Assembly (NCBI RefSeq): GCF_000725385.1
Contig: NZ_CP008884.1
Location: 558,001-622,000, forward strand
Reading direction: 5' to 3'
Length of the DNA: 64,000 nucleotides
Origin: Dyella japonica A8
GTDB lineage: Bacteria; Pseudomonadota; Gammaproteobacteria; Xanthomonadales; Rhodanobacteraceae
In this document: positions 37,309-58,296 of the stretch, one piece after another
Layout of the letters: the number at the start of each line of letters is the position of its first letter
Numbering within the stretch: position 1 is the first letter of the stretch
Program-made: the position numbers and the translations under genes
The notes under the pieces: model-generated
Told to the model about the DNA's origin: nothing
Seen by the model: only the letters and a program-made list of their open reading frames with translations
Databases searched by the model: none

Positions 37309-37361
37309 TTTCAAAAGCACCTGTTGACTGCACTGCAGCATTCCCCCTAAGGTCGGGACCA
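37309..37361 (+). promoter_or_regulatory. thr operon promoter, predicted start on the leader ATG
   Basis: TTGACT (37324-37329) and TAAGGT (37348-37353) with an 18-base spacer are followed, 7 bases later, by the leader-peptide ATG at 37361. Transcription should therefore start at or within a base or two of the ATG. The block TTTCAAAAGCACCTGTTGAC (37309-37328) matches 18 of 20 bases at 56400-56419 in front of the leu leader. Confidence 0.65.
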
Positions 37362-37510
37362 TGTCGCCGCTTATCGCGCCAGCTCGCATGTTCCATAGCC
37401 CGGTTTCCACCGGATGCGCGTTGCTGTCCGGCGCCATGACCATCGCCACCCTGACCACCACCACGACCACTATTACCACCGGGTCGGGGTGGGTTTCCGT
37501 GCGCGAATAA
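37361..37510 (+). CDS. thrL: Threonine operon leader peptide
   Basis: The 49-codon frame ends in a run that reads TIATLTTTTTTITTGSG before WVSVRE. Its many Thr codons with Ile closely resemble enteric ThrL, and homoserine dehydrogenase, thrB and thrC follow directly. The run would stall ribosomes when threonyl- or isoleucyl-tRNA is scarce. ATG 37361 is chosen because it coincides with the predicted transcription start; in-frame ATGs at 37388 and 37436 would give shorter peptides that keep the Thr run. The gene is too short for usual ORF calling. Confidence 0.88.
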   Translation: MSPLIAPARMFHSPVSTGCALLSGAMTIATLTTTTTTITTGSGWVSVRE

Positions 37511-37604
37511 GTTCCTGACGCAAACGGCCCCGCCCTCGATGAGGCGGGCCGGCGTACACTCCGACTCCCCTCGACGAGCACGGGCCACCACCTTGGAGGC
37601 CACC
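37511..37604 (+). promoter_or_regulatory. thr leader RNA, candidate attenuator hairpin without U tract
   Basis: A GC-rich hairpin (CGGCCC(C)GCC at about 37524-37533 with GGCGGGCCG at about 37541-37550) lies between the leader stop and the homoserine dehydrogenase ribosome-binding site GGAGG (37595-37599). No U run follows it, unlike the leu attenuator. Read-through could be limited by Rho or by masking of the initiation region. Confidence 0.45.
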
Positions 37605-38753
37605 GTGAACGCTGTCGCATCACCCTCGCTCGAACAACCGTCGCTACCGCCACATGCCATGGCGCTGCCGACGACCACCGCGCGCCAGCGCGTCCTCGCC
37701 GTGGGCCTGGTCGGCCCCGGCCGTGTCGGCAGCGCCCTGCTGGACCAGCTGCGAACCGCGCAACCGCGCCTGGCGCGCGCCGGCCTGGATCTGCGCCTGT
37801 GCGGCGTGGCGTCCAGCCGCCGCATGTGGCTGGACGTGGACGATCCCGAGTTGAATGGCCGCCACGACAGCGCGCAGACCTGGCGCCCGAGCAACCTCGA
37901 CGAGTTCGCCGCCCATCTTCGCGGCGACGGCGGCCGCCATGCCTTGCTGATCGACTGCAGCGCCAGCGATGCCGTCGCCTCGCGCTATGCCGAGTGGCTC
38001 GCCAGCGGCGTCCATGTGGTGACGCCGAACAAACTCGCCAGCAGCGGACCGTTGTGGCGTTTGCAAGCGATTCGCGCTGCGTGCGGCAGTGGCGCGCGAT
38101 TCCGCTATGAGGCCACGGTGTGCGCTGGTCTCCCCGTGGTGCAGACGCTGCGCGACCTGCTCGATACCGGCGATGAATTGCTTGCCGTCGAAGGCATGTT
38201 CTCCGGCACGCTGGCGTGGCTTTGCAATCGCCACGACGGCAGCCGCCCGTTCTCTGCGCTGGTGCGCGAGGCGCATGCGCTGGGCTATACGGAACCCGAT
38301 CCGCGCGACGATCTGTCCGGCCTCGACGTGGCCCGCAAGCTGGTCATCCTGGCGCGCGAAGCGGGCTGGTCCTTGTCGCTGGACGATGTCGACGTGCAGA
38401 GCCTGGTGCCAAGCGAACTGGCCGGGCTTCCCGTCGAAGAGGCCATGGAAGCGCTGCATCTGCTCGATGCGCCGATGGCGCGCCAGGTCGCACACGCGCA
38501 GACGCATGGCGGCGTGCTGCGCCACGTGGCCAGCCTGGACGCCAAGGGCCACGCCAGCGTGCGGCTGGCCGTATTGCCGCAGTCGCATCCGTTCGCGCAC
38601 ACGCGCCTCACCGACAACGTCGTACAGTTCACCACGCACCGCTATCGCGAAAACCCGATGCTGGTGCAAGGACCCGGCGCCGGGCCGGAAGTCACGGCGG
38701 CGGGTATATTTGCCGACCTTCTTCGCATCGCTGAATCGCTGGAGGTGCGTTGA
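37605..38753 (+). CDS. hom: Homoserine dehydrogenase (monofunctional)
   Basis: The 382-residue protein has a Rossmann motif [14 protein letters not shown] near residue 28, the catalytic Lys in [30 protein letters not shown], and the active-site block [20 protein letters not shown]. It aligns with the dehydrogenase half of ThrA/MetL but has no aspartokinase domain and no ACT domain. It reduces aspartate semialdehyde to homoserine. GTG 37605 is chosen for its GGAGG six bases upstream; the longer frame from 37539 starts inside the leader hairpin. thrB overlaps its stop. Confidence 0.9.
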
Positions 38754-56399: not shown

Positions 56400-56452
56400 T
56401 TTCAAAAGAAACTGTTGACAACCCCTCGGACCGGCCGTTAGGGTCGGTTGCA
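56400..56452 (+). promoter_or_regulatory. leu operon promoter, predicted start on the leader ATG
   Basis: TTGACA (56415-56420) and TAGGGT (56439-56444), 18 bases apart, are followed after 7 bases by the leader ATG at 56452. The upstream block TTTCAAAAGAAACTGTTGAC (56400-56419) and the downstream pattern TAGGGTCGG...ATGTCGC both recur at the thr promoter. Confidence 0.65.
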
Positions 56453-56589
56453 TGTCGCAGCGCAACAGCCACGAACGCATAGCCGAACCGATTGGTCCCC
56501 CGACCATCGACGGCGCGCTGCGCCTTCGCAACAACCTCCTTCTTGCCCTTGTACTCGTACTCCTTATTACCAACGGAGGTGCGGGCTGA
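56452..56589 (+). CDS. leuL: Leucine/branched-chain operon leader peptide
   Basis: The 45-codon frame contains the run NNLLLALVLVLLITNGGAG at its end, rich in Leu, Val and Ile codons. It lies just before a classical terminator and leuA, so it senses charged branched-chain tRNAs. No Shine-Dalgarno precedes the ATG, which coincides with the predicted +1. The gene is too short for standard calling. Confidence 0.9.
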   Translation: MSQRNSHERIAEPIGPPTIDGALRLRNNLLLALVLVLLITNGGAG

Positions 56590-56634
56590 GGGCGTGTGTC
56601 CAGGTAAAGCAGAACTAACCTAGATACCACCAAC

Positions 56635-56669
56635 AAACCCCGCACCCGGTAACGGATGCGGGGTTTTTT
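56635..56669 (+). terminator. leu attenuator terminator
   Basis: CCCCGCACCCG (56638-56648) pairs with CGGATGCGGGG (56653-56663) and is followed by a T6 tract. It lies 46 bases after the leader stop and 35 bases before leuA. It is the attenuator element; ribosome stalling on the Leu/Val run should favour an antiterminator. Confidence 0.9.

Positions 56670-56703: not shown

Positions 56704-58296
<1,593 letters not shown>

Follow-up and report, generated by a model that had tools for sequence, protein, structure and literature searches.

The DNA analysed here, a 64-kb stretch of the 4.83 Mb genome of Dyella japonica A8 (hereafter the window), contains two amino acid biosynthesis operons, each with a short open reading frame (ORF) rich in codons for the amino acids of the operon located 5' of the biosynthesis genes (Table 1). 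The thr leader is followed by the genes for homoserine dehydrogenase, thrB and thrC, and the leu leader by leuA, ilvE, leuC and leuD; ilvC starts about 330 bases past the window edge. Judged by LeuA, the nearest named relatives belong to the genus Dyella (82–94% identity for the first five).

Table 1. Observed and predicted features of the thr and leu leader regions in the window
Feature	Position	Strand	Basis
A/T-rich, UP-element-like block upstream of thr −35	37309..37323	+	Block match; AT peak of 56–66% at the same place in 28 thr loci
Predicted thr leader promoter −35, TTGACT	37324..37329	+	Sequence and relatives
Predicted thr leader promoter −10, TAAGGT	37348..37353	+	TAnnnT at best promoter in 24/24 codon-content thr leaders
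thr leader peptide ORF, 49 aa, Thr-rich	37361..37510	+	ATG at predicted RNA 5' end
thr leader Thr/Ile control codons	37439..37480	+	Translation; aligned leaders
Predicted hairpin, thr control codons and leader end (1:2 position)	37443..37506	+	Fold
Conserved G+C-rich hairpin after thr leader, without U tract	37525..37552	+	Fold; alignment of 25 loci, the window's own copy plus 24 relatives
Homoserine dehydrogenase, GTG start behind GGAGG	37605..38753	+	NCBIfam matches
A/T-rich, UP-element-like block upstream of leu −35	56400..56414	+	Block match; AT 72–76% in 21 leu loci
Predicted leu leader promoter −35, TTGACA	56415..56420	+	Sequence and relatives
Predicted leu leader promoter −10, TAGGGT	56439..56444	+	TAnnnT at best promoter in 21/21 codon-content leu leaders
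leu leader peptide ORF, 45 aa, Leu/Val/Ile-rich	56452..56589	+	ATG at predicted RNA 5' end
leu leader Leu/Val/Ile control codons, LLLALVLVLLI	56536..56568	+	Translation; aligned leaders
Predicted 1:2 hairpin, leu attenuator	56545..56593	+	Fold
Predicted leu attenuator intrinsic terminator, 9 bp outer stem	56636..56669	+	Fold, −21.9 kcal/mol; kept in relatives
leuA, 2-isopropylmalate synthase	56704..58296	+	NCBIfam match

The thr, leu, ilv and his leaders of enterobacteria combine an antiterminator with a terminator, and the two leaders resemble those of Escherichia coli K-12 in that the same operons are preceded by a peptide containing control codons, although the ORFs are longer than leuL (28 codons plus stop) and thrL (21 plus stop) in their annotated form. 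Both an intrinsic terminator and an alternative antiterminator are predicted for the leu leader. The U run of the terminator consists of six U, two of them paired in the predicted fold, and GGTGCGGG at the end of the leader is predicted to pair strongly with the 5' arm of the terminator, which would make it the competing antiterminator. The thr leader is followed by the highly conserved hairpin without a U tract, and termination there may be Rho-dependent or not intrinsic. We detected no extra unpairedness of the leader 5' ends compared with shuffled sequence. At the gathering threshold, no Rfam family matched in the 64-kb window; the matches at the E-value threshold (Thr_leader, Leu_leader and P9) were all sub-threshold, with RF00506 (Thr_leader) reaching 21 bits in the thr region and 22.8 bits in the leu region, where 55 bits are needed, and RF00512 (Leu_leader) reaching 15.6 of the required 50 bits in the leu region.

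The first parts of the leader peptides appear to be under little constraint. Over the first 25 alignment columns pN/pS was 0.96 in 19 thr leaders and 0.73 in 13 leu leaders, yet the leader frames are open in 27/28 thr and 21/21 leu loci (48 of 49 in total), which would fit filler that is translated. In L094, a close relative, the thr leader frame behind an intact promoter is disrupted, which may be an assembly error or a real loss of attenuation.

Upstream of both leaders we found a nearly identical 20-base block, TTTCAAAAGCACCTGTTGAC for thr (37309–37328) and TTTCAAAAGAAACTGTTGAC for leu (56400–56419), with 18 of 20 bases in common. The thr leader has the layout TTGACT-18-TAAGGT-7-ATG (37324–37363, with the ATG at 37361–37363) and the leu leader TTGACA-18-TAGGGT-7-ATG (56415–56454, with the ATG at 56452–56454). 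The shared block and the common spacing had been proposed in the initial annotation and both were confirmed, the spacer of 18 bases being counted from the sixth base of the −35 hexamer, which corresponds to 19 bases after TTGAC. The A/T-rich part of the block is located at about −55 to −40, where the UP element of an RNA polymerase promoter would sit. The spacer of the thr promoter carries TGCACTGCAGCA at 37329–37340, and TGCASTGCAGC is kept in most of the aligned thr loci of the same genus; it is missing from the leu loci and is a possible regulator site.

A search for the shared block with up to three mismatches gave two matches in the window against 0.01 expected from shuffling. In the whole genome the same search returned both leader blocks (0 mismatches) and one site with two mismatches ending in TTGCG, and the reversed control likewise gave three matches, that is, no excess of genome copies over the control. 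The exact layout TTGAC-N19-TARGGT-N7-ATG occurs solely at the thr and leu leaders in 4,827,500 bases. Allowing two mismatches gave 7 sites in the genome versus 10 for the reversed control, and a looser pattern (TTGAC, 17–20 bases, TANNNT, up to 30 bases, ATG) matched 30 sites versus 37. When 24 of these 30 matches were re-parsed, a gap of 6–8 bases between −10 and ATG was found only for the two leaders, for L124, with a one-codon ORF, and for L131, with an ORF of 271 aa.

The conservation of this spacing was followed in 50 leader loci from Rhodanobacteraceae, 29 thr and 21 leu. The thr loci derive from 61 genomes searched, 60 of them with a match, from which 30 loci were fetched. The leu loci derive from 80 leuA loci, of which 24 were scanned first and 28 lie outside the scans; the 21 leu loci are the 20 of these 24 with the promoter, chosen because they match, together with the window's own. 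No such leader was found at the Lysobacter leuA loci L029, L042, L048 and L072. The scan pattern was TTGACN, 16–19 bases, TAnnnT, 5–9 bases and ATG, so that the constancy of TAnnnT is built in. The initial annotation made its reading depend on the spacing being kept in close relatives, and we found it in 49 of the 50 loci, which as orthologs are not independent samples, with a gap of 6 bases in 9 loci, 7 in 35 and 8 in 5. The fiftieth (L116) has AATGAT, a poor −10, at a gap of 6. In the leu loci the letters of the spacer and the discriminator largely differ and the lengths are kept; L015 has a spacer of 17 bases, and the gap is still 7. Of the 49 matching loci, 47 have a C and 2 a T directly before the ATG, and a pyrimidine before an A is the usual YR transcription start.

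So as not to presuppose the promoter, we also picked leader ORFs purely by their codon content and only afterwards searched 190 bases for the best promoter. This promoter had a gap of 6–8 in 21/21 leu and 22/24 thr leaders (43/45), and TAnnnT was present in all 45. In the two exceptions, L101 and L111, a further in-frame ATG lies upstream, and an ATG at 6–7 bases is also present. The codon-content rule recognised no leader in 5 of the 29 thr loci. Dinucleotide-preserving shuffles placed the best promoter at 6–8 in 13/840 (leu) and 12/960 (thr) cases. When this promoter finder was applied to six E. coli K-12 attenuator leaders, the gaps were 88, 34, 82, −29, 33 and 25 (0/6 at 6–8); the finder probably missed some real promoters there, and this control shows only that it has no bias to 6–8.

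Five further thr loci from Rhodanobacteraceae, outside the 50, are less uniform. L155 fits, with TAGGTT at a gap of 6. L152, L153, L154 and L156 have TTGACA, 17–18 bases, a poor −10 (TCCACT or TCAACT), 6–8 bases and ATG, the fitting ATG of L156 being the second in-frame one. What stays constant across the wider group is thus how far the ATG lies from a strong −35, and a −10 of the form TAnnnT is characteristic of Dyella and its closer relatives.

Similar layouts were found at leaders of other families. Among 40 genomes of a second family, codon content identified a Thr leader in 21 of 26 loci and an Ilv leader in 8 of 25 loci. The best promoter lies at 6–8 in 13/21 thr and 6/8 ilv leader ORFs, and in no fitting leader of either kind is the −10 a TAnnnT; the distance from TTGAC to ATG is the same as in Rhodanobacteraceae, with poor −10 sequences. 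Eight of the 21 thr leaders fall outside 6–8, two of these at 9. L264 was counted as fitting on a doubtful, implausible ORF, and L233 on the wrong ATG; when the ATG nearest to the promoter is taken, the ilv leaders L226, L228, L233 and L222 have gaps of 7, 7, 7 (6 with another hexamer) and 6. A third family, represented by two genomes, has an Ilv leader with TTGACA-17-GATAGT-7-ATG (2/2 at gap 7). In a fourth family, 24 hisG loci were examined and 10 have an ORF with a His run. All seven such ORFs with a TTGACN/TAnnnT promoter have an in-frame ATG 6–7 bases after the −10; in five of the seven this ATG is not the first in frame, the earlier one overlapping or preceding the promoter.

Four loci with hisG (L301, L302, L303 and L314) encode two tandem His-rich leader ORFs ahead of the gene, at about 1030 and 1180–1195. 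The first would be leaderless by the position of its promoter, and the second lies behind a U tract resembling that of a terminator, and no promoter was found for it. The pair may form a double attenuator or a leader-peptide relay.

The layout has its limits. By the rules used, the Dyella loci contain no His leader within 1500 bases upstream of hisG and no separate leader upstream of ilvC, and no thr leader was accepted at L157–L166 and L149, which are loci from other families of the order. In more distant bacteria, only two candidate leader ORFs were found upstream of leuA in 28 loci. One (L034) has a weak TTGCTG-17-TAGCTT at a gap of 7 when the last 60 bases are considered, and a better-scoring promoter at a gap of 79 over a wider range. 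The other (L063) does not fit the layout.

We propose, with a probability of about 0.85, that the thr and leu leaders are ribosome-mediated attenuators whose leader mRNA is leaderless or carries at most about 3 untranslated bases. The gaps place the predicted +1 at the start codon or no more than about 3 bases from it, and the near-leaderless start is well supported, as the spacing is held across genera and recurs at unrelated leader genes. The sequence itself shows the promoters, their conserved spacing, the ORFs and the leu terminator with its competing pairing; from these the exact +1, initiation at the 5' terminus and a response to amino acids are inferred.

The near identity of the two blocks could alternatively mean that the TTTCAAAAG block is the site of a common amino acid regulator, the likeness between the two promoters being unrelated to translation. 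Blocks containing TTTCA are also present at both operons in Dyella relatives, and the conserved TGCASTGCAGC of the thr spacer would suit a regulator as well. This explanation is unlikely, since the block shows no excess over its reversed control in the genome, outside Dyella it drifts to other A/T-rich sequence with the AT peak at the UP-element position, and a common operator leaves the fixed gap between −10 and ATG unexplained.

Start choice commonly wobbles over a few bases, and the thr leader has in-frame internal ATGs at codons 10 and 26. Transcription could accordingly begin a few bases up- or downstream, giving a 5' UTR of 3–10 bases or initiation at an internal AUG, and the message would be short-leadered. 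A gap of 6–8 hardly allows an untranslated stretch longer than 3 bases, however, and some relatives lack the internal ATGs whereas the first ATG is conserved, which makes this improbable.

That TARGGT is a Shine-Dalgarno sequence, and the leaders ordinary leadered mRNAs transcribed from further upstream, is very improbable: UAAGG does match part of the anti-Shine-Dalgarno complement, with duplex energies of −6.7 (thr) and −6.8 kcal/mol (leu) at the window loci, similar to the −5.8 of leuA, but these energies range from −9.6 to −0.6 kcal/mol across 49 loci, the inner letters become CG, GT, TG or TC in leaders found by codon content, those of the second family have TTATCT, TTCTCT or TCCTCT at the same place without a purine core, and the alignment, which reaches 45 bases upstream of the −35, shows no second conserved promoter. 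As the TAnnnT frame recurs while the inner GG varies, and as TARGGT keeps 17–18 bases to TTGACN, which a ribosome site would not need to do, comparison leads us to reject the Shine-Dalgarno role and to read the hexamer as the −10. The initial annotation had predicted leaderless initiation with no room for a Shine-Dalgarno. The conserved spacing supports this claim; by comparison a Shine-Dalgarno serving the leader start is absent, and the claim has to be qualified by the weak match at the two window loci alone.

The near-leaderless reading of the two leaders can be set against ordinary genes of the genome, for which we sampled 464 kb (20 stretches and the window, 2 kb overlapping) containing 314 genes according to a crude G+C-position caller. 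TANNNT is present 5–8 bases before a candidate ATG at 18 starts (4, 9, 2 and 3) in 17 of the 314 genes. The baseline at positions 13–59 is about 2.6 each, so that about 10 would be expected and the excess is modest. None of the 18 starts has GGAG, GAGG or AGGA 4–11 bases upstream, compared with 137 of the 314 genes at some candidate start. When a −35 matching at 4 of 6 positions is also required, no called gene in the 464-kb sample has the layout. Leaderless starts are thus possibly a minor mode for ordinary genes in this genome, and of such predicted sites the thr and leu leaders are those with a full-strength promoter. The leaderless candidates include a gene that by eye resembles cytochrome oxidase subunit I (MSTNHKDIGTLYLVF). 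L131, mentioned above, is located at 1021627–1021664 on the minus strand, with TTGACN-16-TAGACT-7-ATG before its ORF, and is a possible leaderless gene.

Leaderless attenuator leaders are known from other bacteria. The trpL RNA of Sinorhizobium meliloti begins with ATG, and an added Shine-Dalgarno left the accumulation of a leader-peptide fusion unchanged (PMC7298713), a mild argument that being leaderless has no special role in that case. That leader belongs to an alphaproteobacterium, responds to Trp, encodes a 14-aa peptide and precedes one operon, whereas those described here have 45–49 codons, involve several amino acids and belong to Gammaproteobacteria. In Streptomyces lividans, leuL, ilvL, trpL, thrL and metL lack a 5' leader, as do 17% of transcripts, and leaderless genes have TTGACn/TAnnnT promoters (PMC8079986). 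The likeness lies in several leaderless attenuator leaders in one organism and in the type of promoter. The differences are that this is an Actinobacterium, that its peptides are mostly 12–18 aa and that its thrL precedes thrS and not a thr operon. For the ilvBNC operon of Corynebacterium glutamicum, a published account describes a start one nucleotide from the leader start codon, a three-hairpin attenuator and, as earlier work reported in the introduction, a change of the ATG that cut expression by 80% (PMC11857589). The leader there has 15 aa, and initiation is proposed to be blocked by a hairpin that shields the 5' end, whereas we detected nothing special in the structure of the 5' end here. 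A 2026 paper refers to leaderless cysteine attenuators in mycobacteria.

The claim of the initial annotation that leader peptides read in this way would be an unusual attenuation design is correct only in part, given the precedents in Actinobacteria and S. meliloti and the hints of leaderless starts at some ordinary genes of this genome. The kind is known; within the literature searched, what appear to be new are the lineage, the spread over four pathways of a single gammaproteobacterial order and the length of the leaders. The titles and abstract beginnings of the open literature searched mention no leaderless attenuator leaders in Xanthomonas or relatives, and one Xanthomonas paper has the word "leaderless" in its reference list only. 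The start-site maps of Xanthomonas reportedly published by Schmidtke in 2012 and Alkhateeb in 2016 may contain earlier cases.

If leaderless, the two leaders would work as follows. A sigma-70-type promoter, made up of the UP-like A/T stretch, TTGACN, a spacer of 18 bp and TANNNT, would begin the RNA at or next to the A of the AUG, the exact +1 being a prediction. A ribosome would start on the 5'-terminal AUG without a Shine-Dalgarno and traverse some 25–28 little-constrained codons before it reaches the Thr or the Leu/Val/Ile codons. With charged tRNA it would presumably continue as far as the stop codon and mask the antiterminator strand, the downstream hairpin would form and transcription would end. 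A stalled ribosome would leave the antiterminator free.

The classical picture of attenuation comes from enterobacterial leaders, which are leadered. An order with leaderless-looking leaders in four pathways and four families offers a natural test of how attenuation relates to the mode of initiation, and a −10 six to eight bases before an ATG gives a simple rule to find leader peptides missed by annotation or to assign their correct start. The dependence of the leaders on 70S initiation and initiation-factor balance, raised in the initial annotation, is a speculation. Broader still, and improbable, is the idea that leaderless initiation is the rule for Thr, Leu, Ilv and His leaders in this order, where ordinary genes often have a Shine-Dalgarno, and gives the switch a second input. 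If true, translation of the leader and hence read-through would depend on how many 70S ribosomes are available and on the balance of IF2 and IF3, the 25–28 little-constrained codons before the control codons could serve as a runway that gives slow 5'-terminal initiation time before the decision point, and amino acid sensing would be coupled to the translational state of the cell.
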